A stretch of 31,466 nt of DNA from Thamnocephalis sphaerospora (taxonomy: Eukaryota > Zoopagomycota > Zoopagomycetes > Zoopagales > Sigmoideomycetaceae), in contig KZ992559.1 in NCBI GenBank assembly GCA_003614735.1, positions 1 through 31,466 on the forward strand, read 5' to 3'. Position 1 is the first letter of the stretch. Each line of letters begins with the position of its first letter. The notes below the pieces were generated by a model. It ran no database searches, was not told where the DNA came from, and saw only the letters and a program-made list of their open reading frames with translations. Shown piece by piece: positions 4,684 through 22,424 of the stretch. A program made the position numbers and the translations under genes.

Positions 4684-6550
4684 CTAAACATGTCCACCGA
4701 CTTGACGCGCCGAAATCCTGTGGTCGTCGATCTGTTTCCATGGCCAGGGGGGCGTATGTGTCTTGCTAAGCACACTGCCTGTCATTAAACTAAGAATACT
4801 CGTCTTTGATGTGGTGCGCATTCCAAGCAAGATTATTAACGCGCCAGATTGGATGGTCCAGGCAACCATCTTCATCTGGTATCGAAGTGCGTTGACGGTG
4901 GGGGTCGTGTCTAGCCTCATTGTTACCGATAGAAGCATGTCGATGGCCAAAAAGAAAAAGCCAATAAATGTGGCAATTGCAACGTAGGACAGCTGCAGCA
5001 GCGGTGCAGCGGTCTGCTCACTGACGGCCATCTGCCGTCGTTGTCTCAGAAAGACATGGCTGTGATAGATGAACAGACAGCACATGCATAGCTGAAACGC
5101 GGGCACAAGATATCCGATGATCACTATGGCGTTTACGGCACCAAAATACGGTCGGCCGACGGTGGCCCACATCTGCACTCCGAACGTGGCAGTGCGCACG
5201 ACCATAGCCAAGAAGGTAACTATAATAAGAAGTATCGGTCGCCTTTCCTGCTGTATTGCAGCCAGCACCGAACACCTGTGAGAATGCGCACAGCAATGCG
5301 TTAGTAATCGCGATGTGGCGGAAGGCGTGTAGCATAACGCCTACCATAATAACAGTAGCGAATAGGAACATATGGTTAAAATGAAAGAGGCGGTCATTCT
5401 CAGTAGCTGCTCTCGCAGCTCAGCGTGAGACATTAGAAAGAAGGGCACGCCACCTATGGTGCACCATTCATACTGTCTGTAAGTACTAGAACGCTACCAG
5501 CAGGATGCTCTTGCATTGACTTACAGATACTTGTAATGAGAGAAGCAAGAAACACGGAATTGCGCTGGTCCAGCTTAAATTCTTTGGCGTAGACAGATCG
5601 ACCGAGCTGAAAGATGCCGTAGAGCAGAAAGAGGATGTTCTACCGAGAATGTTGGTAGCAGGAAGATTAGCTGCTCGCTCAGTCCACCAATTAGCAATCT
5701 GTTGCGTACCAGCACGAAAAATGTTATGCTAAAGCCAACGTAGGCGGACGAGAGAATCACGTCGTTCCACGGTCCAGCCTCTACGGGTACGCGTCAGCGT
5801 GCGAAGACAGCATATCAAGCCGACGAGAAGCGCACCTTTTTCTGCTATAACCACCGCGCCATTGGTACCAGTGCCGTTCAAAAAATCGCCCACTTCCTTT
5901 GTGTGGTCCGCTGGCACCAACACCGTGATGATGCTGGGACGTTTGTCAGTAACCGATAGGTTATCTGCCGTGTACGGCTCTGTGTAGGGTGATCCCGAGT
6001 ACATCTTGTAGTGTTCATTTGTGAGCAAAAGAAGAAATAAGCTCGGCGCCGACACTCCTTCTGTCGCAAGCAGCCTCCCGTAGTTCACCACGGCTAATGC
6101 TGCCTATGGGTAGCGGTAAGCAATCTGCATGGCATAGAACGCGTATAGATGGCCCTTGCTTACCTGCGCAAATGTGTGGCATTGTGCGGCGCCCGCCTCA
6201 GCCCAGCTGAAACTGACCACCGGTGGGCCTTTGGACTGTGCCGAGTTTTTGATGCTATTTAGATCACCCTGATCTCCATGCTGCAGCAGACATGCTTCCT
6301 TTGGCACAAACGTTGGCCGTAAAAGCCTGCCAGTAATGTTGTAAGCAGGCGGGTCCACGCCATAGTAGTCGTAGGTAGGAACGGTGAGCGTGCGGCCTTC
6401 AGAGGATGCCGCGGTAAGACGAGCATCGACCAGGGTGCACAGAGTAATGCTGATGAAGAGAGACAGAAAAATGGCGCATGACCACCAGGTGCATCCGCTG
6501 GAGCAGCAGGCGCGCTCGGTTCTGCGTCTGGCCGTGCGCGTGCGCTGCAT
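4684..6550 (-). CDS. Seven-transmembrane protein with an N-terminal PA-like luminal/extracellular domain
   Basis: Splicing complement(4684..5275, 5345..5453, 5525..5639, 5710..5780, 5836..6103, 6164..6550) gives 513 residues. The five introns are 55-71 nt, with donors GTAAGC, GTGCGC, GTACGC, GTAAGT and GTAGGC; the intron at 5276-5344 has a perfect TACTAAC branch point. A signal/anchor lies at about residues 22-42. A soluble region of about 170 residues follows, resembling a protease-associated (PA) domain (SWAEAGAAQCHTFAQAALAV, then IITVLVPADHTKEVGDFLN). Seven hydrophobic helices follow, at about 226-251, 269-289, 301-322, 329-350, 362-388, 408-433 and 450-468, then a polar tail. This is a receptor-like topology with large N-terminal ectodomain, 7TM core and cytosolic tail. 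I cannot assign a named GPCR class or ligand. The splice into exon 5 is the least certain junction. The last codons may be frameshifted at a run of six G (4750-4755); a better tail would end at 4623. Confidence 0.7.
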
Positions 6551-8636: not shown

Positions 8637-9606
8637 ATGACACAGAAATTGACCGAGCCGCTTCCGCCAACCAAGTACTGCCTGCTGCAGCTGGCGGCGC
8701 CACACACTCTGCTCATCACGCTAAACAGACCGGCGCAGCGGAATGCGCTACACCTGCCCGCGCATCATGAGCTAGCCGCTGTGTTTGATTATGTGGAGCG
8801 GGAGCCGGAACTCTGGTGCTCGGTGGTAGGCCTCACTGCTTTGCGGACCGCTGACTGGACAAGCGCTCACGCTTGTTCAAACTAGATTACGGGTGCTGGC
8901 GAGAAAAGCTTTTGTGCGGGCGCAGATATTAAGCCGATCACCGGCGATGCTGCCGGCAACACGACCGTCCCTACGTTCCGAATCGAAGACTATCCCGTGT
9001 CTGGGTTCGGCGGCCTGTCGCGGCGAGCCGGCTCACGCAAGCCGGTGATTGCGGCGGTGCAGGGCCATGCATTTGGCGGTGGCATGGAGATACTGCTGGC
9101 GTGCGACATTGTGGTAGCGACAGAGCGCGCCACGTTTGCCATGCCCGAAGTGAAGCGCGGTATTGTGGCGGCAAATGGTGGCATTGCCCGTTTGGTACGG
9201 ATCGTTGGTAAGTGACGCTGCTGCTGTCATCTGCTGGTGGTGATCAACTGACATCGGCATGTGCATAGGCTACCAGCGTGCCATGTCCATACTCATCACG
9301 GGTCGTGTCCTGTCAGCTCGCGAGGCCAAGGAATACGGCTTTGTCAATGAGCTTGCGCAGAACAAGAAGGAAGCTATCAAGACAGCGTTGGCGTATGCGC
9401 GTCTGATCACCACTGCATCTCCAGACGCTGTTGGCTGCACCAAACTAGCAGCCAACTGGGCGCTCGAATCCTCCACCCTTGAGGCGACGCGGCGTCTGAT
9501 CGAATCGGATGAGCTACGCCAACTATCCGATGGAGAGAATCTAAAGGAGGGCGTGCGTGCATTCAAGGAGCGCCGCCACCCGCGCTGGCAAAGCAGCAAG
9601 CTCTAA
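8637..9606 (+). CDS. Enoyl-CoA hydratase/isomerase (crotonase) family protein, probably peroxisomal
   Basis: Splicing join(8637..8825, 8886..9207, 9269..9606) gives 282 residues with introns of 60 and 61 nt (GTAGGC and GTAAGT donors). The crotonase fold signature is clear: LNRPAQRNAL near the N-terminus, ITGAGEKSFCAGADIK at 64-79 for CoA and oxyanion-hole formation, and HAFGGGMEILLACDIV at 124-139. Glu131 and Glu151 sit 20 residues apart, as do the two catalytic glutamates (144/164) of classical enoyl-CoA hydratase, so hydratase chemistry is plausible. The protein ends in Ser-Lys-Leu, a canonical PTS1 signal, which points to the peroxisome matrix and fatty-acid or related acyl-CoA breakdown. 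There is no obvious mitochondrial leader. The GIVAANGG segment recalls carnitinyl-CoA dehydratase-type members, so the exact substrate is open. It is convergent with ERCC1, 128 bp away. Confidence 0.9.
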
Positions 9607-9734
9607 TGCCGCATCCTGAAAGTACACACATTTTTTGACAAAAGTGCGTTGGCATACTTGGGCCCATTTTAGTAGCTAGCCAGCGTACATCCACGCATGT
9701 CACGCCGGTCGCTGCTTGATCCTTTCCGCACTAG

Positions 9735-11244
9735 CTAGTCGTGCGCAATGAATGGCTGAGAAAACGCTTCACGTAGTCGGCGTACTTTTTGAGTACCAAA
9801 GCCCGGCAACGATGCCAACTCTTCTGGCGTCGCACTGACAATTCGCGCCAGTGTGCCAAAGTTGGAGATGAGCGTGAGCACGTCAGTCTTGGTGACCGAC
9901 TTGACGCTAGTGAGAAACTTGGTGAGGCGGGCCAGATAAGCATCGTCCACACGCTCGCGCAACACATCCGGCGGTCGATGCTCAAATGACTTGAACGTTT
10001 CAATGTACCGTCCGGCTTCCTCGGCGCTAAAAGCAAAGCTGTGAATACGTCCTGTCTGTACACGACAGCTACCAGTGTCATTGAGCTTACCTCCACGCAA
10101 GAAAAAGCGTCATCTCGCCGCTAACAGCCACTCGCGTAAGCTCGCGAATTAGCTCCTGGTGATCGGTCTATGGCACGTGTGTAAGCCACTGATCGTGACG
10201 CTCGGTGAATCATAGTTGATACATGCCACATCCACCTGCACCAGCAGTACACGCAGTACAAAGCGCCGACCAAGCTTCTGTATCCGATCGTAGATATACT
10301 CGGGGCGCAGTCGATGGTAGCGCAGGCTACGGTGCCAGGGTAAGTACAAGGTAGCGGCCATTCACAGCAGCCGAGTCCAGTGTATTCGCATACCTAAGAA
10401 AAAGCACGCAACCTGTCACGCCCACCACATAGTCAGGCACCACTCCTTCGCCCCACTCCCAGGGGATGTTGCGTATATACCGCAGCACCGGGTTCCCCTC
10501 CTGGTGCGGTGGCATGCTGATCAGCGTGGAAACACGCGTTAACCGTCTGACACACGCACCTGGCACCGGTTGACGAGAATGGTAGCAGTAGATGCCGGCC
10601 GCCATGTTGTTTCTGGCGCTATGCGCTGAGCGCCAGTTGCTGATGGTCTACTGCGTGGCACGATGGATTCTACCGGGACCTGCGCACTGAGGGTCGTGCT
10701 GCGCTCACCAGCAGCCGTTCTCGTCGCATCGCTGCGCGTTGCGGGTAAGCAGGCGGCCTTGTCTGCTGCATCTGTGCCACGCGCTAAGCAGACTCACGTC
10801 GCGCCCGTCGATGCTGCCTGCTGCTGCTGTGATGGGATGGATGCACTCTCAGCGTCTGGATTGGGCCGCTTAGCCGGTGCGGCGACGGCTGGTGTCGCGT
10901 GCTCTGCATCTACAGCGCATGCTCGCTGTATGAGCCGGGCTTCCACGTGTGTCGTCTGTACATGCGTACATGGACACCGGCAACGTTGCTGCTATCTCCG
11001 CACCGTCGTTGTTACCTTTTGGCGGTGCAAAGCCGCCAGCTGCAGTAGTGTCGTGGTCGCGATTGCCATTGGAATTCTGGTGCATTTCTGCTGACTGTCC
11101 GGTCAGGTCGCGGCGGCGTTCTTCTAGTATCTCACGACCTGTGCGCAGCTGGGCCGTGAGGTCGTTCGCCGCACGCTGCGCCTCTAGCTCGCGCCGCGTT
11201 GGAATGTGCACGCGGAATGCCGCACTTTCGTTGGGTTCCGACAT
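9735..11244 (-). CDS. ERCC1: DNA excision repair protein ERCC1/Rad10
   Basis: Proposed exons are complement(9735..10038, 10091..10167, 10230..10326, 10394..10500, 10560..10731, 10798..10909, 11004..11244), 369 residues. The conserved core is certain: ILVNRCQ joins across a 59-nt intron to [17 protein letters not shown], then [28 protein letters not shown] and [10 protein letters not shown], the central XPA/DNA-binding domain. The last exon carries [14 protein letters not shown] and a tandem helix-hairpin-helix (about the last 65 residues, with [12 protein letters not shown]) that dimerises with XPF/Rad1. The heterodimer cuts the 5' side of damaged DNA in nucleotide excision repair and acts in crosslink repair and recombination. 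The N-terminus is low-complexity. Its first intron could instead start at 11015, and the 10168-10229 intron has a weak GTGGCA donor. The ATG at 10605 with a good Kozak context is internal to the longer model. Confidence 0.88.
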
Positions 11245-11481
11245 GGTGAGGAGGGAAGACGGCACGTTGGCGCACAACATGGCGGTGCGGTCACATAACA
11301 ACCGATTCTGCCGCTGGCCACGCCGACCGCTCGCTCTCTACTCGCTGCATATCCGCTTGCAAAGTTCTTTGTCCGTCGCTGTACCTGCTAAACCACAAGC
11401 TTCTCTCGCTCGCTCGCCCGCCCGTCCGTCCGTCCTAACATCCCTTCCACTACCAGAGCATCCGCCTATCGTCAGCTCAGT
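11245..11481. promoter_or_regulatory. Divergent promoter region between ERCC1 and the small secreted-peptide gene
   Basis: These 237 bp separate the two start codons. The right half is C/T-rich on the plus strand, with CGCTCG and CGTC repeats at about 11405-11435, a composition common in fungal core promoters and leaders. No TATA box or clear operator is visible. Assignment rests on the head-to-head arrangement. Confidence 0.35.
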
Positions 11482-11676
11482 ATGCGCGCCTATACCGCCC
11501 TTTTTGTCGTCACCTCGCTTATTATCACACTCTGCTTGAGCAGCGCTGGAGCAGCACCAACCGACGAGGTTGTACTTAATAGACAGGGCGTACCAGTTGG
11601 CCACAATATCGTGGACCAAAGGACTGGCCGCACCATGAACCTTAAAGGCCCGCGCACCGAGAAAACCGGTCTGTAA
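11482..11676 (+). CDS. Small secreted protein of 64 residues
   Basis: A single uninterrupted frame runs from ATG at 11482 to TAA at 11674-11676. Residues 1-25 form a textbook signal peptide: a short positive start (MRAY), a hydrophobic core (LFVVTSLIITLCL) and a small-residue cleavage region (SSAGAA). The predicted mature part is about 40 residues, polar, without cysteine, rich in Gly, Thr, Arg and Asn, and contains GHNIVDQRTGRTMNLKGP. There is no dibasic-repeat structure of the alpha-factor type, no GPI-like tail and no CaaX box. It sits between divergent ERCC1 and convergent AME1-like genes. A (TAG)n(CAG)n repeat follows in its 3' flank. I do not recognise the family; a secreted peptide or cell-wall-associated protein is the only supportable description. 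Confidence 0.55.
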   Translation: MRAYTALFVVTSLIITLCLSSAGAAPTDEVVLNRQGVPVGHNIVDQRTGRTMNLKGPRTEKTGL

Positions 11677-11702
11677 ACGTGCATTCTTCGCCATCACCAC
11701 AA

Positions 11703-11712
11703 TAGTAGTAGT

Positions 11713-11741
<29 letters not shown>
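11703..11741 (+). repeat. Trinucleotide microsatellite (TAG)4(CAG)9
   Basis: Four TAG units at 11703-11714 run directly into nine perfect CAG units at 11715-11741. It lies between the convergent ends of the secreted-peptide gene and the AME1-like gene, so it is probably in a 3' untranslated region. Perfect repeats of this length are usually length-polymorphic. Confidence 0.85.
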
Positions 11742-11743
<2 letters not shown>

Positions 11744-11927
11744 CTTTAGCTTCCACCTGCAGCTACGGATTCATCTGCTCCACCCACATCACACCAAAGA
11801 TGCGACTAGCGTTCGGCATTGCTCTATGTAGCTTATTTGCTTTGATGTCGTATATTTGACAGTAAACATCCACGCTGCAGTGCAAACGAAAATGATGGTA
11901 GCATACTGCGTGTACAAATCTTAAGCA

Positions 11928-14861
11928 TCACTCCTCTTGCTCCTCCATCTTTTCTCCCTCCTGCTGTTGCTGCTGTTGCGCGTCCTGCTCCTTTGACTTT
12001 TCTGCATGTTCCTCTTCTGAAGCATCTTTTTTGCTTTCTTCTTGCTCCGTCTCTTGCTTTTCATCTCCTATTTCTTGCTCTTGCTCTTGCTCTTGCTCTT
12101 GCTCTTGCTCTTGCTCTTCAGTTGATGACATGAGTGCGTTGCTAAGAATAAGCTTGTCCACCTGTGCCTGCGTTGCCTTCTTCGCCAACACTTGGTTCGT
12201 AGCATGTATGAGTGCGTTGAAGCGAGCAATGGTTGCGGCCATACTGGTGGCTCTGGACGTGGCATCATCGATGTACTCCTCCTCGTCAGTCACCCCCATC
12301 CCATCCTCGTGATCAGGCAGCTCGGGGAGTCGACCAGAAAGCTTTGCCAGCGTCTTGCCAATATTTGACTGTTTGCGGAAACAGTATTTTCGTTGCCTTA
12401 GTCGTCAAACAGGTGTGGCGTCTACTGCTGCGTAACGACCTACCATATCAACGCGCGGCTTATTGACACCGTCCACCTCCATCTCGCTTTCTTCTGCGCC
12501 TAGTGCTGCTCGTAGCGCCAGTATGTTTGTAGTAAAGTCGCGCATTTTGGTCTTTAGCTGCCACCATCACAGCACGGCGCATTAGCGTCGTCTATTGGCG
12601 GTACGCTTAGTAGTCAATGGCCACGTACTGCTCGCGACTGCACGCGTTCCTTTTCCACATTCTCCAGTGCCTCCAGTTCAGCTGCAATCTCGTTTCGTTC
12701 ACGCCGTATTGCGACTAGGTCCTGGCGCATATGACGCTTCTGCAATCGCACACGACGCAGCGATCGCATTATTAGCGATCTCTCCGCCGTGGCGTCAGCC
12801 TGCACACACAGATTGCCGCAGCGTTTGAGAAAAAAATAGTTAGCTACCAATATTCGCGACGACACTACCGATACGCCAGAAACGCTACTTGCGTGCTCAC
12901 CTGTTCGCTAAGCTGGTTGGCCACGTATTCCCGAAAGGTTTTGACGTACGGTGCAATATTTTTCTCGTAGTTATCGCGAGCCGCATTATCTGGACTAGCA
13001 GTCAGAGAAACGATCGTCATGAATGCTCGTTAATCAACCGGCGCTACATTATCCGTATCACGCTAGCCCACCTACACATAGCTTTTGATGGCGTCCATTA
13101 CAGTCTTTGTCACCACGTCGATGAAGTTTACGCTGCTTCTCTGTGCGCCGCGGGTAAGATTGATGGCGCACTTGTCATCTTTGTCATCTTGACCGTTGGT
13201 GTCGGCTGCCGACCCCACGATGGGGCCGTCAAACTTTTGCGTGAAATAACGATAGAGTCCATCCTTTGGCCTATCTTCGTCATCGCTTGCAGCACCAGTT
13301 TGCTCACGCTTGGTTGGCGCGTCCGGCGGTCTAAGCGGACTACTTTCGGGCTCCTTGCCAAGACTGAGTTTCTGCAAAACACTGTTCGAGGACGAGTCCT
13401 GCTGTGACGTGTCACTTGCTTGCAAATCGTGTCGCGGTGCGTCGCTGGTTGAAGTATCGTTTTGCGTGGTATCACTCGGCAGTGCATCCGAGGATGGCAC
13501 TTTATCCGGCGACGTATGCTGAGGCGGCAAACTATCTGGCGGTGCATCTTGCTGCACCGGATTTTGTACAAGAGCGCTGCGATACATTGCATCAAGTCGC
13601 AGTGCGCGCGGTGGTGGCAAAGTGTACTGCGGCGAGCGTAACCGAGGTGAATCAACTCGTGCCGCGTCTAATGCAACCGACTGTGTTTGAAATGGCAATG
13701 ACAGAGCGAGCAGCCGTAGCGATCACGCCAATCGATGAAACGCGCGCAAACAAGGTAAACAGGAGAACGATGCTCTGTAGCGAGCGCATGCACACACCTG
13801 TCGTGGAATACTGCTGCGTCTTGGTTCTGCGCGCTCCTCTTCGCTTGTTGAGAGGTGGGGCGGTGTTTCAATGACAAGCGCCAGATCGGCCGACTCCATT
13901 CCAGTGGAAGGCACGGGTGTTGTCTCGCTGCGTACGCGTCGACTTGCCGATCCCGAAGAGTCGTGTTCGGCACTGCGCTTTGATGGAATGCTGGCCTGCA
14001 GTAAAGACGAGGACAGAATCTTTTCGCCCGACGCCGCGCTGGCATCGGCATCGTATTCTGCAGCATTTCCTTGCGGCCCCTCCTCCTCTCCGCCAATTGA
14101 CGGCATTGGCGAGGCCTCCTGAATTGGCCTGGCGCCAGACTGCGGCGATCGCATATTATCAAGTCGCATTCGCTCTGCGCCACCATGAGGTCAGCGTTCA
14201 GTTAGGTATACCGTATCATCTAGCCATGGCAAGCTTTTTGTGCGCCAGCATACCCTTGGCTTCGTTGAGCACTTGATCTAGACTGGGTATGTTCTGCAGC
14301 ATCTCTGATGAAGTGTGAGGAGACACTTGATACGGGCTGTCGGTGATCAGTGGCATCTGCTCTGCAATCATTGTGGACCGGTACTCGGCGCCGGGCACCG
14401 ACAAGCGAGACAGATCACTCGAGGACGGCTGGTTTGCAATACCAGAGCGATTCGATCGGTCCGCACCGGCGATGGCGTTTGCTGCCACGATGGCTGATCC
14501 AGACACATTACTCGTCGACGTCTCCTTGGTTGTCGCGCTACTGGTTGTCGCAGTGGTATTTGCCGCAGCCTGAGCATTCGCTGCGGCACCCTGCTGGACC
14601 AAATCGTCCATATCAACCTCATAGTTGGCGCCAAAATGCTCACTACGTGTCAACGCATGCTTGTCAGTATGCAACAACAGCCATAGCCGCAGCAATGCGG
14701 TCTACCTAACGGGGCGTCTACGCTGCGCCCTCTTCTCCGCACGCCGATTGGCGCCGGCTAGTGTGTGTGTGCGCGCGCGCGCGCAAGTCAGACTATGAGC
14801 AGCTAAACGAGTAAACGTGTTTGCCTCTACAGGGCTTACATGGTTCGGAATCTGGGTCCAT
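11928..14861 (-). CDS. Inner kinetochore subunit AME1/CENP-U-like protein
   Basis: Nine phase-consistent exons, complement(11928..12368, 12444..12557, 12629..12799, 12901..12994, 13076..13680, 13798..14174, 14254..14642, 14706..14757, 14840..14861), give 754 residues; introns are 63-117 nt. The first exon is 22 nt. The N-terminus (MDPDSEPSGANRRAEKRAQR) is short and basic. About 400 low-complexity Ser/Pro/Ala residues follow. A conserved-looking C-terminal half starts SSVNFIDVVTKTVMDAI, then a helical segment (YVKTFREYVANQL). A strong coiled coil follows, with LRRVRLQKRHMRQDLVAIRR and ERNEIAAELEALENVEKER. Fungal AME1/CENP-U proteins show the same order and spacing; they pair with OKP1/CENP-Q in the CCAN complex and tether centromeric nucleosomes to MIS12. 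The tail is an unusual Glu/Gln/Lys tract made by a hexanucleotide repeat. The gene model is strong; the family call is moderate and rests on the coiled-coil pattern. Confidence 0.6.
12074..12117 (-). repeat. In-frame hexanucleotide repeat encoding a Glu-Gln tract
   Basis: The plus strand carries about seven tandem CTTGCT units, read on the minus strand as GAGCAA codons. They give an (EQ)n tract inside the last exon of the AME1-like gene. The repeat keeps the frame whatever the unit number, so it can vary in length without breaking the protein. Flanking sequence is also Glu-, Lys- and Gln-rich. Confidence 0.85.
14761..14784. repeat. (GT)5(GC)7 alternating purine-pyrimidine tract at an intron 3' end
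   Basis: Five GT and seven GC dinucleotides form 24 bp of strict purine-pyrimidine alternation, a sequence type that readily adopts Z-DNA. In the AME1-like gene, on the minus strand, it lies within the first intron and ends at the last CAC before the acceptor TAG at 14760-14758. The tract therefore takes the place of the usual polypyrimidine stretch. Confidence 0.75.
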
Positions 14862-15066
14862 GCTACGCGAAAACTCCCAAGGACATGAGCCACCCTGTGG
14901 CCAGGAGCTCTACGGTGGCAAGACACGCCGAGTCGTGTGTGGCGGCGCAAGAGAATCGGCGAAAACCAGACTAAACAAACACAATCTTGGAGTGACGCGG
15001 TGTGCCTTTCATTTCTGCTCGCTTTCACCGTTGCCATCCCATTTTGTCTACTATTCCGCCAACCTC
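14862..15066. promoter_or_regulatory. 205-bp divergent promoter region shared by the AME1-like gene and LAMTOR2
   Basis: The start codons of the kinetochore gene (minus, 14861) and LAMTOR2 (plus, 15067) are 205 bp apart. The right end is pyrimidine-rich (about 14999-15060), consistent with a leader for LAMTOR2. No TATA box is evident. The regulatory role is inferred from position. Confidence 0.4.
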
Positions 15067-15612
15067 ATGCTCAAGCCCAGAGTCATCGCCAAGGTGCTGC
15101 AGCAGGCCCTTACGGGCGGCGTAGAGACAGCGCTGTAGGTTTCATCTTGCTTTGCAGCGCTGCCAGACAGATGGCGCAGTATGTTCCGTCGCTTACGCCG
15201 ATTCGCAGACTTTTGACGCGTGACGGCGCTGTTCTTGCCTCGGGCACGTCACCTGGAAAGTCAGACACAGCAATACGCGCTGCGGTCGCAGCCAGCGCCT
15301 GGAAAGACTACGAAGCATGCCTGCGCAGCTGGTCGGACGTTGGCGACGACCCGCGCTGGCTGTTGCTGCGCTGCGAGCGAGGCTATGCCATCGTACGACC
15401 AGTTGGCGAGCTACTGGTAGCACTGGTGGCCAATGAAACCTGCGAGCTGGGTATGCTCCGGCTAAAGGTAAGCGCGGGCGCGGCTAGCGGTCAGCGGGCT
15501 CTCGCACTGGCTAATCCAAAGCGTCGCAATCCATGCACATCCATGCACGCAAACACAGGTGGATGCGCTGGTGAAGCACTTTGAGGAGCCGTTGAAGAAG
15601 GTTGTTTTGTAA
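15067..15612 (+). CDS. LAMTOR2: Ragulator complex subunit LAMTOR2 (p14/ROBLD3, roadblock/LC7 family)
   Basis: Splicing join(15067..15134, 15209..15467, 15559..15612) gives 126 residues, against 125 in the human protein. Introns of 74 and 91 nt have donors GTAGGT and GTAAGC. The N-terminus MLKPRVIAKVLQQALTGGVE matches the LAMTOR2 family start closely. It continues TALLLTRDGAVLASG across the first intron, SAWKDYEACL in helix 2, and ALVANETCELGMLRLK joining across the second intron to VDALVKHFEEPLKKVVL. LAMTOR2 pairs with LAMTOR3 as roadblock domains in Ragulator, which anchors Rag GTPases and TORC1 signalling at the lysosome or vacuole. No domain element is missing. The middle of exon 2 (SDVGDDPRW) is more divergent than the ends. 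It is convergent with the aldo-keto reductase gene, 154 bp apart. Confidence 0.9.
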
Positions 15613-15766
15613 GCGCGACATCGCCAACGGCTTTAATAACAGACCGTATGCTATACGAGCAGTGCTATTTGAACGGAGCCAAGCGAATTGGGGACGGAGC
15701 GCACAGGGCCGCTGCAACACGTCGCAATAGGGCCATAGCAGCGCTTTTGCAGTTGGGCCGCCGGCT

Positions 15767-17152
15767 TTAACCGTTGCGGAAGTTGGGCTCAGGTGCGGGA
15801 CGGTTGCCGAGAATGTGCTCAATCTCGCGCATCACCTCCGGCGTCAGAAGCGGCAGCACCTTGAGTGCAGCGACATTCTCTGCCACTTGCGAAGGGCGCG
15901 ACGCGCCTATCATGTGCGACATGCGCCACAGTCCATCGGTTAGCGTGCGGCAGCGTGGATGCGCCGCTGAAGATTGCTTGCCACTTACCGGTAATGACTG
16001 AGGCCACATTCGGGTTCTTGGCACACCAGGCCAAGGCCAGCTGCGCACAAGTGCAATCGAGCCGTGTGGCAATCTCTTTAAGCACCGCCACCTTGGCTAG
16101 CTTGAGCCGGCCGTCGTCGGTGTTGAGACCCTCGCGCATGCGCCGGATGATGGCGTTGTTTTGCATGCTCAGACGCGAGTCTTCCGGAACACCGTTGTTA
16201 TATTTGCCGGAAAGCACGCCAGATGCCAGCGGACTCCAGATAGTGGTGCGCATGCCATATTTCTGATAGAGCGGAGCATACTCTTTCTCAACGCGATCGC
16301 GCCAAAACATGTTGTACTGCGGCTGCTCAACCGCCGGACCAATAAGGCCGAGACGAGCAGCAGTGCCATGCGCATCCGATAGCTGTTCGACCGACCACTC
16401 GCTGGTGCCCCAGTAGAACGCCTTGCCTTGGTTGATAACGTGGTTGAAGGCGCGCACAATCTCCTCCATTGGCGTGTCTGAGTCTGGCCGATGGGCGTAC
16501 ACAACGTCTACATAGTCCATCTGCAGCCGCTTCAGCGACGCATTCAGACCTTCGACAATGTGCTTGCGCGACAGGCCAGTGTCGTTTGGACCCGAGCCGC
16601 CCCAGAACAGTTTGGTGCTAATCACCAGGTCAGACCGTTTCCAGCCGCTGCGCCGAATCACCTCACCCATGTACACCTCTGATTTGCCATCTGTGTGTGC
16701 GCAACGTATCAGCAATCACACTACAGCTATATCCGACATGCACGTGCACGCGTCCACGCACTGGCATACACCTCGGCCGTATCGAAAAAGTTGATGCCGA
16801 GCTCGTAGGCTGCGCGAATACAATCGGAAGTAATGTCTATGCATCGCCAGGTTTCCGTCATGTCAGCTCGACGGCATGGCAAGGTGCATTAGCTATGCGC
16901 AGAAATACCTTCGTTCACTTGGCCGCCATAGGTAAGCCTACATTGTGGCGAGATACAGGCAGATTTGTAAGCGATACGATAGCATGACGGACATGCCGGC
17001 CAGGACGCTTATGCAGCTTGGCCGTCTTTTTGCTGCGCGTCAACCCACCAGCCACCCAGCGAAAAGACCGACACCTTCAGCCCCGTACGACCCAGGAAAC
17101 GGTACTCCATCTTGGGCGCCTTGCTGGTCTGGTTATTTTCGGCAGTAGACAT
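15767..17152 (-). CDS. Aldo-keto reductase related to voltage-gated K+ channel beta subunits
   Basis: Splicing complement(15767..15906, 15989..16690, 16762..16836, 16909..16937, 17049..17152) gives 349 residues. Introns are 71-111 nt with donors GTGGGT, GTATTT, GTGCGT and GTAAGT; exon 2 is only 29 nt. The N-terminus reads MEYRFLGRTGLKVSVFSLGG. The catalytic tetrad is visible as Asp63 and Tyr68 (FFDTAEVYANG), Lys96 (VISTKLFWGG) and His136 (VDVVYAHRPD). Downstream are IWSPLASGVLSGKY and the NADPH-binding segment ASVITGASRPSQVAEN. The (beta/alpha)8 barrel is complete and of normal length. Kv-beta-type reductases use NADPH to reduce aldehydes; in fungi they occur without the animal channel partner, so a soluble aldehyde or ketone reductase is most likely. 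The physiological substrate cannot be read from sequence. Confidence 0.9.
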
Positions 17153-18345
17153 GTTGGAGTAGTGGGGGCAGTGGTGATGGTGATGGCACAATGAGTGTGG
17201 CCAAGCGAAAGGACTGGCAGATGGTGCGTTCGCTGATAAACCCTGGCCGTGACGTCACACTGGACCCTCTCAGCTTGATACTGCAAAGTTTATTCTAGGC
17301 TGGAGCGGCTGTGCACGGGCAATATATGCATTGCTATTGAAAACAACGACCGGCTGGACTGCGCCGGCGCGACCCAGTACTGCTGACAACAACAACAGCG
17401 TCAACAACGACGGGAAGAGGGGACGAGATGAAAGAGAAAAAGGACAACAGCCAAGGGGAGCGCCGGGGTAAAGGCGATGCGCGCACCCAGAGATGCTGCA
17501 TCGCTGTCCACTGCCGACGGTCCCGCCGACAAGTGTGGGGAGCGTGTGGAGACGTGTAGAGAATGGTGCAACACCGAGGATGAGGGTGAGGTGGACAGGC
17601 GGGTGGAACGGAGAAAAAAGGGACCTAGTGCAGACGACAGGCTCATGTGCGCACAGCACACAAGTATGCCGCTGGCAGGAGCAAAGAGGGATGAACGAAT
17701 GTGAGGGCGCGAGCCACGGCAGACTGTTCGACAGCTGGCGGGCTCGGGGAGGGTGTGAAAGCATAGACACAAAGAAAAAAAAGGGTTTGGTCGTTGGCAC
17801 AGCAGAGAGAGGGAGGTGTAGCGACTAGCGCGGCTGGCCAGACACAGCCACCGGCAGTAAAAATAGCGTAGTGAGAGAGAGAGAGAGATAAAAGTAGTCA
17901 TAGTTGTGGACATGGCGATGGCGGCGGCAAGTAGTGGTCGCCGCGCATGAATGGCAAGAGAATAGCAAGCAGTAAAGTAGCAGTGATCCGCGACAATGGC
18001 AGTCACGATCGACATAGAAATGGGGCGGCAACAGACATCATAGCGGTGGATAAGTATGCGCCGCTGCGCCGATGGACAATAGAGTGGACGGCGGCGACAC
18101 ACAGTGAAAATAGCATGCGAGTGCAAGTAATAGATAGGTGGTGTTGTGGCAATGAGAACATGGGCAGCGATGGCAGCGGTATGGCCGACGCGATGGTAGG
18201 TGCGGATGCGCACGCCAACACAGTGGTAATGGCCAGCGCGCCGACGCACCACACGCCCTTGTAGATATGCAGGATGAAAGGTGATGATGCAGAGAAAGAA
18301 AGAGACAAGTGTGGAAGCAGCGCCAAGGCACGGCGATGCAGTCGT
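17153..18345 (-). other. Non-coding stretch, probably 3' UTR of the zinc-finger gene and upstream region of the reductase gene
   Basis: This 1.2-kb stretch lies between two tandem minus-strand genes. It is C/T-rich on the minus strand, with a GA/CT dinucleotide run at 17872-17888. The resulting minus-strand open frame of 283 codons (17401-18252) is rich in Leu, Ser, Cys, His and Arg and contains no domain. I consider it compositional. It likely holds the 3' untranslated region of the CCCH gene and the promoter of the reductase. Confidence 0.45.
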
Positions 18346-20070
18346 CTACGAGTGACCCATGCGACGGAACACGGGTAGACGACGTTGCTCGGTCGTGCCG
18401 CTGCCGTTGCCCAGCTGCGACGGACCGTGCGGCTGAGCGGCGAGGGCCGGATGGTTCACGGTGCCGGTCGACGCCGAACGCGGGCGGTTGTTGATGGCGC
18501 GGGCCACCGGGGATCCGTGTGCGCCTACCACGGGCATGGGTAGCAGATTGCCGCTAATGTTGGCTGGCGCACTGGTGCCGACGGGGCCCAGCACCGGCGG
18601 CGTCAGCGGGCCGCCACTGGCCGAGTGCACCGACACGGCAGAGAGTGCCGGCGAAACCGGGATCAGCGAGGTGGCGCTGTCGCCAAACGCCGATGTGCTA
18701 AAGTTGGGCGAAGCGCGCACCGGAGAGCTCGAGTAGAACGGAGTGGGCAGGGCGACGTGGGATGAGCCGACCATGGGCATGCCTCCCTTGACGCCGCTCA
18801 TGGTGCCTGGCGCGTCAAAGCGTGCGCCATCGTCCACCGCGTCGATGGTCCAGGCGCGCTGACGACGTGGCCTGTTGTCTGCCTGCAGATCCAGCTGTTT
18901 CATCAGATCGGCGCTAAGCAGGCACGGCGGCGATGGGAACGAGCCGAGCGCGTTGCCAGACATGGGCGCAGCAGCGCCTACCGCAGACGGCCAGGTGCTA
19001 GGCACGCCCTCTGCCAGTGGCACTGTGCTCATCATGGGCATGGAGTGGCGCGCCGGTTCGTTGCTGTAGACCATTGAACCCGGCTCGGCCGTCATCGGCA
19101 GATACGAGGCCGACGCATGGCCAGTCGCCGTTGTCACCGCGGTTGCCGTCACCACCGGCAGCGTTGGGTGATCCGGCACATGACTTGCGCGCATGGCAGC
19201 CAGCATCGGTGACGACGTGACACTGGACGTGCATGACGAGCCAAAACCGCCGTTGGCTGCAGCTGCACCGGTGCTCGCCGGCATCTCGCCCATCGGCTCG
19301 CTGATGAGGCTCACCGCCGAGCCGTTGGCGCTGCCCGCCAGGCCGCCGGGCCCTTCGTTGTGAATGAAGCAGCAGCGCTTGCCGTAGGGGCAGGTGCCCT
19401 TTTCCCAGAATGTCCGGCAAATCTCCGTCTTGTACTTTGGATGGCGTTGCACCTGGCGCAGCTCAGTGTTGCCGTGAGCAAACTGGCACTTTGTGCCGTA
19501 ACGGCAATGGCCCGTTTCTTCAAACGAGCGGCACAGCTCGGTCTTGTAGAGCGCCGACTTTTTCGGGTCGCGGTCGCGGCGCGCGCTGATGGTCAGAGTG
19601 GACGTGGATGACGCTGATGAAAGCGCCAGCATGCTAGCACTCTGTGAAACGGCCGCAGTTGACGACGTAATCGCGTCTAGATCCGAGTTTGCTCGACGAC
19701 GGCCGGTCACAAGGCTCGCGGCGGCCAGACCGCCAATCGCCTGCTTGCCGGCTAGGTTGCTGAGCGACGACGTGCGCATCGCACTTGGGCCAACGTCACT
19801 GTTGCGGCGCCCGCCGCGCCACGTTGCAGTCGGCGGCGTCAGACGACCATCTGAGCTCGGCGTGTCGGGACGTGCATCGTGCTGTGGCCACACGGGCAAA
19901 GAGCGGCGCGAATTAGCGGTTGCGCTGCCGCCACCGCCCGTCACCTCCAGCGAGGCAGCACTACCGCGGCGTGTCGACTGCCGCCGGTGGTGGTCCATGC
20001 TGGGAGGCGCACGAAGATCGACGATGGCGATCGGCGTTTGCTTGCGCGAAAGCAGGCTGCTCATCGACAT
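18346..20070 (-). CDS. Tandem CCCH zinc-finger mRNA-decay protein (TIS11/ZFP36/Zfs1 type)
   Basis: A single exon from the ATG at 20070 encodes 574 residues; the frame is open upstream, but only from a non-ATG codon. Finger 1 is Cys180-Cys189-Cys195-His199 and finger 2 is Cys218-Cys227-Cys233-His237. Both are C-x8-C-x5-C-x3-H and are preceded by the family lead-ins YKTEL and YKTEI; the 18-residue linker is the TIS11 length. Such proteins bind AU-rich elements in mRNA 3' ends and trigger decay. The C-terminus [13 protein letters not shown] matches the conserved CNOT1-binding peptide at the end of TTP, so recruitment of CCR4-NOT deadenylase is likely. The rest is disordered Ser/Pro/Gly/Ala with several basophilic kinase-type sites ([27 protein letters not shown]). 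It is intronless, unlike its multi-exon neighbours. Confidence 0.9.
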
Positions 20071-20920
20071 GACTGCGATGATACCGTTGCTGCGAATAGA
20101 TGGACTTGATGCACAGGAGAGTAAGCGTGCCGGCGGATACGAATGAAAGCGTATAAAAGTGCTTGCAGATGTATCCACGAGACGGGCGAGGTGTACGTAG
20201 GGGTGTATAGCTACGAGGGCGGGAAACCAAGGTAGGATGCGTAATGAATAATGTAAGTAGCGGCCTAATGTGGCTGAAGAAGGATGCGTACAAAGAAAAG
20301 TAAAGACGGTGACGGTAGCAATACAGTCTGGTTAGCACGTGCGGGAGCAGGCGAGCAAAGGAGACTGTGCGAGTGCCGACGGGAAAGGGAGCGAACGCAC
20401 GGGGAGGGGCGAGGGAGAAAGTACTGGAGGTGACAAAGCGCGTGAAAACGGCGGTTAGTCACGTTGTATACACGGCCTGGCACGCTCCCTTTGCTGACCA
20501 AGGATTGTCATATAGGCATCCACCGCCCAACCCTGCCGTTCTTGGCACGCCCGTACCCCACACACACACACACGCACACACTACTTGCCTAGTCACGCTG
20601 TGCAATGGTCGTGCACAGCCAAAGGGCGGAACGGGATGAGCAGAACGTGGTGACCAGCTCGGCGTTTCGGACGAGTCGACCGGCCGCGGACGTGGGGGTG
20701 CGGGAGCGCGAGCGAGCAGCAGCAACAGTGGCTACAGCGTCGGCGACAGTGGCAATTCCTGCGGACAACAACGAATAGATCGTGGTGGGGGTAAGCGACA
20801 GGCGCGTGAATGACAAGGGAATAGAGGGAGAGACGAGAAAAGGGCACGCGGTGGATACAGTGCTAGACGCCGTAATCAAGCGTGGCTTTGGCGTTTTCCA
20901 CGAGCAGATGCGTGTATGCG

Positions 20921-20950
20921 CGTGCGGGTGCGGGTGCGGGTGCGGATGCG
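20921..20950 (+). repeat. Tandem GCGGGT hexanucleotide repeat
   Basis: Four near-perfect GCGGGT units end in the variant GCGGAT. The G-rich strand has regularly spaced GGG runs and could form a G-quadruplex. The repeat lies in the probable leader or promoter region of the CCCH gene. Confidence 0.75.
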
Positions 20951-22424
20951 AGTACGTATGTCGGCGTACAGGTTGCGCGTGTCTGCAAGCGCATATGCGG
21001 ATAGCCACCCACACGCACGCCCACACAAGACAGGGGACGTCAAAGGCGACGGTGACGGGCACCGGGCAGGGAAGTGAAGCTTCTGCAGTGACAGTCAGCT
21101 GCGAGTTGGCAATGTCAAGCGGGCGAGCGCCAATGGATAGACGTGCAAAGCAGTGTGCTGTCGTCAGACTGCTCGGCGCAGCAGGCGGCAGCTCACTTTA
21201 GCGCCAACAATAAGCGGCTGCAGAACAAGCGAGCGCGTGCAGCCAGCAGTGGCGTCAATGTGACACCGGCGACAAGACTGGGTCCTGGTCAATGCCACGC
21301 AGCAGGCGAACTAGACGTGCGCAAAAGGATGATGCGTCGTCGGCCTAGTAAGGACAGCCAGATAAAGAAGGGATAAAATAGATGCGCGCGGGTGAGGATG
21401 GCAACAAGGACAAGGTGGCGGATGCGCGCGCCGGGTAGACGTGGCACGTCGGGTGTTTAAAAGGAAGGAACATATGACGCGCAGGTGAGATGCACATCAT
21501 CGCCGGCGCACGATTCAAGCAGGTGCGTGAAACGGCCGCTCAGCAATGATGTGCAGACGGGACCGTCCGGCGGAGTTGGACCATTAAGCGAGACCAGGGA
21601 ATGTGATACACCCACCCGCACCCACATACGCCATGGCTCCGCTTGGCAAAGGACTGGCATGGCCGATATAACCCGTGCGCGCGGAATGACGCACTGCTGC
21701 ACCAACACGGCGCGGGCACGGCATCGAGAGCTGGCGCGGGCTCGGAAGCATGCAGTGCATCATGCAGCGTCACCGCTTACCTCGTAGGTGTCAACGACAG
21801 CAGCAGCGGTGGCAGCGGTGGCAGCAGCACACCGGATAGGCGTCAACTTTGCGTCACAAACCACTGCAGCGTAAAAAGACAATGCGCATGTGCGTGCACG
21901 GCATCCAACCATGCGCGGAAATAGAGGCTAGCGGGCAGACGGCAGTTGCGAGCAGACAAGAGAGAGAGAGTATGGATGGGCGAGTGGGTGACGAGGACAA
22001 GGAGTACGAGCGTCGGCACGCACCCACATGTGCGTTGACAAGGGTGCACGTCGCACAAAAAGGTCGCGAAGTGGAGCGGTAAAGATCCGACCACATTAAC
22101 CAAACATTGCCACGAGCCCGGTCGCCCAATGCACGAAACCATGCACACGCGGCGGTACTGCGGATTCAGCGTGCGGGCACAGACGACTTGTTCCGTGTCG
22201 GCCCGTGTGTCACGCGCAGGCGGTGCGGTCCGCCACGGTCCTGCGTCAGCGTCACAGACCGCACGCCTTCATGTGCAAGCAGCCCTCCATGGAAACGCCG
22301 CTCCTTGGCATCCTTGCTCGGTAACGCAAGACCAGCGACCACCATCCGCCGGCAATATTGCAGCCAGGACATCACCGCATTCAACCCGCTATGCAACCTA
22401 CCAAAAAACAGGATCCGTGCAGCA

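Follow-up and report, generated by a model that had tools for sequence, protein, structure and literature searches.

A candidate family of seven-helix, receptor-like proteins with a conserved outer domain in the mycoparasitic fungus Thamnocephalis sphaerospora

What kind of protein is encoded on the minus strand between positions 6550 and 4684 of the 31,466-nt stretch of Thamnocephalis sphaerospora contig KZ992559.1 analysed here (the window)? To our knowledge, it is largely unknown how biotrophic mycoparasites recognize their host fungi. An earlier interpretation made from the DNA letters alone, hereafter the sequence-only reading, proposed that this gene encodes a receptor-like protein in which an ectodomain resembling a protease-associated (PA) domain precedes seven membrane helices. 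On balance, we favor the view that the protein belongs to a family that has expanded in its lineage, is otherwise orphan and consists of seven-helix, receptor-like surface proteins of this mycoparasitic fungus. The genome that we searched (14.46 Mb in 594 contigs, with the window gene on C136) is a single-cell co-assembly from an uncultured mycoparasite, and the main text of the genome paper contains neither the word RNA-seq nor the word transcriptome (PMC6784888).

Joining six minus-strand exons of the window yielded a product of 513 residues that is identical to the deposited hypothetical protein THASP1DRAFT_29295 (P0001; NCBI, UniRef and EukProt). All five introns are of the GT-AG type and 55-71 bases long. 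Exon 1 (6550-6164) encodes residues 1-129, comprising the start codon, a signal segment (residues 23-41) and the opening portion of the outer domain, where Cys87, Trp116 and Cys124 lie. Intron 1 (6163-6104, 60 bases, phase 0) follows residue 129, and exon 2 (6103-5836, residues 130 to ~219) continues the outer domain, contributing predicted helix A, strands 5 and 6, and helix C. Intron 2 (5835-5781, 55 bases, phase 1) separates it from exon 3 (5780-5710), which encodes the Trp223-Asn224 motif preceding transmembrane helix 1 (TM1) and the beginning of TM1. Beyond intron 3 (5709-5640, 70 bases, phase 0), exon 4 (5639-5525) supplies the remainder of TM1, inner loop 1 and the bulk of TM2. Intron 4 (5524-5454, 71 bases, phase 1) has the donor GTAAGT and the acceptor CATAG, and is followed by exon 5 (5453-5345), which encodes the end of TM2, outer loop 1 and the bulk of TM3. 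Finally, intron 5 (5344-5276, 69 bases, phase 2) contains a TACTAAC branch-like motif and leads into exon 6 (5275-4684), which runs from the end of TM3, with an invariant Trp317, through TM7 and an inner tail of ~44 residues to the stop codon.

Paralogues in the same genome provided further support for this model. A spliced-alignment script with no prior knowledge of the intron places was applied to 11 fetched paralogous regions. In two of these (C139 and C94:13985), all five introns were found at the residue and phase of the window gene (130/0, 219/1, 243/0, 281/1 and 317/2), the latter having two introns beyond the five common ones. C218 had four introns at exactly these places and the fifth displaced by one residue, C225 had three of the five, and C375 and C141 had part of them; the place of intron 1 was common to the C139, C94, C218, C225 and C375 paralogues. 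In C54, C99, C206 and C317, intron 3 was kept and an intron near intron 5 was found with at least one query, while C75 consisted of a single open frame across the receptor part.

Conversely, when the window was searched with other family members as queries, L32a recovered all five introns, L30, L38 and L37 four each, and P0004 three. Introns 1 and 4 were recovered by all five queries, intron 3 by four, and introns 2 and 5 by three each. The alignment scores ranged from 176 to 346, compared with 35-50 in controls that used a shuffled segment or the opposite strand (run with L30 and L32a only). Full independence applies to just two queries, the intronless open frame L30 and the deposited protein P0004, as L30, the window protein or its C139 paralogue had served as guide for the L32a, L37 and L38 models. 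P0004 and L38 also produced extra, wrong introns, and the script placed plainly wrong introns outside the conserved part. Other splice models for 5780-5345, including a 37-base intron and alternative acceptors, were dropped because the paralogues yielded the identical five-intron pattern. We consider the predicted gene model sound, supported by intron places common to the paralogues. Exon joining, identity with THASP1DRAFT_29295 and these introns thus confirm the 513-residue spliced product of the sequence-only reading. Its further claim that ordinary ORF-based annotation would miss the gene was wrong, since the same protein had already been deposited.

Hydropathy analysis revealed the signal segment at residues 23-41 followed by seven peaks centred, in the family mean, near residues 243, 279, 306, 339, 377, 423 and 460. 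These membrane peaks reach 1.56-2.32 in the family mean, whereas three peaks within the outer domain are far weaker (0.66-0.86). In the window protein, TM7 reaches 1.46, slightly below the usual 1.5, and a weak additional segment lies at residues 140-158 inside the outer domain. By hydropathy, the signal and seven segments were clean in the window protein and in 10 of the 13 rows of the family alignment, from which L34 and L35 were omitted because they duplicate P0002 and P0003. The signal/anchor, the soluble region put at about 170 residues (~180 between the signal segment and TM1 in our analysis) and the receptor-like layout of seven hydrophobic helices that had been read from the sequence were therefore all borne out.

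The signal segment has a basic start and ends VDA-RLT, with an alanine at a like place in most rows but not in L37; read by eye, the sequence suggests that cleavage likely occurs after Ala43. Eight diverse members share invariant Cys87, Trp116, Ala119, Cys124, Thr126, Asp182, Pro185, Trp223 (before TM1) and Trp317 (in TM3). The two outer-domain cysteines, Cys87 and Cys124, are kept in all 13 aligned members and likely form one disulphide. The outer domain of the window protein also contains three N-glycosylation sequons. With segment boundaries taken from hydropathy, the supposed inner loops and tail contain 15 arginine or lysine residues versus five in the outer loops, a distribution that fits an outer N-terminus; together with the signal segment, this count places the N-terminus on the outer side in the predicted topology. 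The inner tail varies in length, from ~13 residues in the C139 model to 40 in P0004, 44 in the window protein, 127 in P0003 and ~375 in the C75 frame.

A tblastn search of the T. sphaerospora genome at E <= 1e-4 revealed 18 family loci including the window gene, which is a lower bound: C136 (window), C139, C75, C54, C99, C206, C317, C225, C218, C141, C375, C531, C549, C100, C433 and three on C94. Models or deposited proteins are available for 13 of these loci; the others are C549, C100 and C433, each resting on a single short match at this threshold, and two of the loci on C94. Weaker candidates on C108, C413 and C113 and at a fourth place on C94 may enlarge the family. For the C218/C375 pair, we obtained a dN of 0.207 and a dS of 1.316 over 465 codons, with replacement low compared to silent change in the outer domain and the membrane part alike. 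The only pair compared is thus under purifying selection; it does not include the window gene, its silent sites are near saturation and its models are partial.

The four deposited members that we saw (P0001-P0004) are all hypothetical proteins. No relative outside T. sphaerospora was found in protein databases among the 7,995 best word-sharing candidates scored or the 879 candidates of a UniRef search, the latter recovering three paralogues (P0002-P0004). This result does not establish the family as specific to T. sphaerospora, because the scoring of 7,995 candidates yielded only the window protein and missed P0002-P0004, which that database also contains; the subfamilies have few five-letter words in common. 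NCBIfam gave no match above cut-off and sequence searches of the PDB gave nothing useful: succinate-receptor matches (E 0.03-0.1) were weak, were not repeated with the family profile and were discarded. A profile scan also returned a THH1_TOM1-3 match (E 0.001) in one of eight aligned members.

Several members drew separate attention. At C94 ~9478-21499 (partly L032), at least three and perhaps four or more members form a cluster on both strands. The C75 member (L030 1789-4509) is intronless, with one 907-aa open frame and the long inner tail mentioned above, and resembles a retrocopy or the product of intron loss. At residues ~370-410 of P0002 (C99), the deposited model differs from the genome-derived one and has one hydrophobic segment fewer, probably owing to a mis-annotated intron. 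At C206, an open frame (L035 4353-5480) that reads like another multi-helix, receptor-like protein adjoins a family member.

Several observations weigh against a receptor-like surface family. The seven helices were unclean in three of the 13 rows, namely L39 (TM1 missed, TM5 split), L38 (a cut model) and P0002 (the deposited model that lacks one helix). No known Pfam family of G protein-coupled receptors (GPCRs) matched above cut-off in P0001-P0004, the eight aligned members or the family consensus, and a DRY-like or NPxxY-like motif was found in 0 of 15 rows (two genes counted twice). The structural models are weak, with a mean pLDDT of 43 for the window protein and 48 for P0004, and with P0004 blocks ranging from 24 to 74 in a full-length fold. 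Foldseek searches with these two models gave no match at E <= 0.001 in either case. Structure comparison ranked artificial helix bundles and an iron-binding protein higher (12.9-13.9) and scored unrelated membrane proteins alike; according to the tool's own note, helical bundles may score ~13 through their common arrangement alone. Furthermore, expansion by itself is no proof of a sensory role, and proteins of this kind can also reside in the Golgi or endosome, so that a surface location is presumed here.

Compared with the fungal GPCR classes (STE2/STE3, cAMP-receptor-like, Pth11 and others, as listed in the sections consulted of PMC12842992 and PMC13308352), the family shares the seven-helix layout and the outer N-terminus. 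It differs in lacking a Pfam match above cut-off and DRY-like or NPxxY-like motifs, and in having a folded outer domain of ~180 residues. Most fungal seven-transmembrane (7TM) receptors have no known ligand, as stated in part of one of these sources (PMC13308352). The T. sphaerospora genome contains two G-alpha loci.

If these proteins are indeed receptors, the outer domain, perhaps with a PA-like alpha/beta fold, would stand outside the cell and could bind a peptide, protein or glycan cue, perhaps derived from the host fungus. Binding would shift the bundle of seven helices, and the signal might then be relayed to a G protein or an arrestin-like adaptor by the inner loops together with the tail, which differs in length from member to member. 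Sensing of host fungi is an attractive guess because of the mycoparasitic ecology and the expansion of the family. The sensor for peptides or extracellular proteins suggested by the sequence-only reading is likewise conjectural.

The alternative that survives best concerns the outer domain, which could be a true PA domain unseen by sequence profiles. The protein would then be either a PA-7TM receptor, which refines the receptor-like reading, or a membrane enzyme with a PA domain, for example a degenerate SPPL. In the AlphaFold model of P0004, the outer domain consists of beta1 (28-33), beta2 (36-41), beta3 (58-61), Cys71, a short helix, beta4 (96-101), a further short helix, Cys110, alphaA (113-129), beta5 (135-141), a strand at 155-159, beta6 (171-175), alphaC (179-188), beta7 (195-199) and a short helix, followed by TM1. 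The PA variant of ZNRF3, according to the part of its structural description consulted, has seven strands, three helices and a conserved disulphide linking the beta3-beta4 and beta4-alphaA loops (PMC3905715). The order of elements in P0004 resembles this description and both cysteines fall at the places of the ZNRF3 disulphide, the first in the stretch from beta3 to beta4 and the second in the stretch from beta4 to alphaA; however, helix B of ZNRF3 was not seen, and extra short helices and a strand are present in this low-confidence model. The model of the window protein is compatible with the P0004 order but weaker, strands 3 and 4 being bridges only and strand 7 missing. As in ZNRF3, RNF43 and GRAIL, the outer domain stands directly ahead of a membrane helix, but the T. 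sphaerospora family has seven helices instead of one, no RING pattern and no detectable sequence similarity to these proteins.

Sequence profiles argue against a PA domain. PF02225 gave no match in P0001, P0002-P0004 or the family consensus (E <= 10) or in eight aligned members (E <= 1), under HMMER filters that discard most matches above ~0.1, and no family contig carries any of the 17 PA places detected genome-wide. A comparison by hhalign with eight PA domains from long open frames of the same genome gave a score of 15.0 (P 0.14), which was matched or beaten by 3/60 and 3/100 column shuffles, by 4/100 for one subgroup and by 36/100 for the window gene's own subgroup. A 26-column piece spanning strand 6 and helix C was nevertheless in register with the same-genome PA domains. 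No PA protein was found by title among the best 50 matches of each structure search, which says little because the membrane part fills the list of one search. For the PA-like ectodomain of the sequence-only reading, the predicted element order and the cysteine places thus suggest a tentative likeness, while no profile matched and the profile comparison was not significant. Because both models are of low confidence, we call the outer domain only PA-like in layout, and we put the chance that it truly adopts a PA fold at a little short of even.

The enzyme variant of this alternative is disfavored. SPPL2-type proteases, which combine a PA domain with several membrane helices, have nine helices and catalytic YD and GxGD motifs. 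In the window protein, the membrane part contains neither GxGD nor YD or WD, which counts against an SPPL intramembrane protease. Elsewhere in the family, the membrane part of L40 contains GxGD without YD, and those of L32a and L37 contain YD or WD without GxGD.

A GOST (Lung 7TM/PTM1)-like protein of the secretory pathway, with a lumenal outer domain and seven helices serving trafficking and no G-protein signalling, is an improbable alternative. The layout is alike, with a signal, a lumenal domain, seven helices and a short tail, and the UniRef name of three paralogues begins 'Lung seven transmem...'. However, PF06814 does not match P0001-P0004, yet it finds a GOST gene at C170 of the same genome, the only place found, and membership in the Lung 7TM family was rejected accordingly. 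The label carried by P0002-P0004 is a misleading automatic name. GOST outer domains are all-beta, whereas that predicted here is mixed alpha/beta, and an 18-copy expansion would seldom be seen in housekeeping trafficking proteins.

We regard kinship with the ambient-pH receptor PalH/Rim21, which signals through arrestin, as very improbable. PalH/Rim21 proteins are likewise fungal and have seven helices, PF08733 ranks first among the Pfam families for the window protein (22.1 bits, E 8.8e-5, residues 289-430, spanning TM3-TM6), and a genome search for PalH-like places yielded the window gene alone, again below cut-off. The 22.1-bit match lies below the curated cut-off of 34.1 bits, and PF08733 matches only one of the eight aligned members, none of P0002-P0004 and not the family consensus. 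We know of no PalH protein with a large outer domain of this kind. Furthermore, the tail of the window protein is only ~44 residues long, compared with the arrestin-binding tail of Aspergillus nidulans PalH (residues 353-760), as given in the part of the report consulted (PMC5026065). PalH membership thus failed on both the PF08733 cut-off and tail length. A PA-TM-RING E3 ligase was discarded in view of the seven hydrophobic segments, a RING pattern after the outer domain in 0 of 15 rows and no Pfam RING match in P0001-P0004.

With at least 18 loci, a conserved outer domain and no known profile, this receptor-like family of a mycoparasite makes a direct candidate for host recognition. We found no study of the window 7TM family, of GPCRs in Zoopagomycota or of transmembrane receptors in Zoopagales in the literature searched. 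If true, the joining of a PA fold to a seven-helix core would be a combination of domains that we did not find in that literature; in the part consulted of one paper, the terms 'protease-associated domain' and 'seven transmembrane' both occur, but in unrelated contexts (PMC4255773). The bolder proposal of a new class of fungal 7TM receptors, with a PA-fold ectodomain joined directly to a GPCR-like bundle and with ~20 genes encoding host-fungus sensors in an uncultured mycoparasite, appears to us rather unlikely.

Other features were recorded in the window and the genome. On the minus strand of the window, positions 875-1897 encode a RING-IBR type E3 ligase (IBR and RING profile matches), 15819-16715 an aldo/keto reductase (PF00248), and 18346-20331 a protein in which two stretches match PF00642 as CCCH zinc fingers and which recalls the tristetraprolin kind. 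PA domains occur at 17 or more places in the genome; 13 of these lie in open frames no shorter than 860 aa. Four PA-bearing frames were inspected, of the eight used in hhalign, and contain what we take to be subtilase motifs. These motifs are in line with the subtilase expansion told for the T. sphaerospora genome in the portions consulted of its report (PMC6784888).
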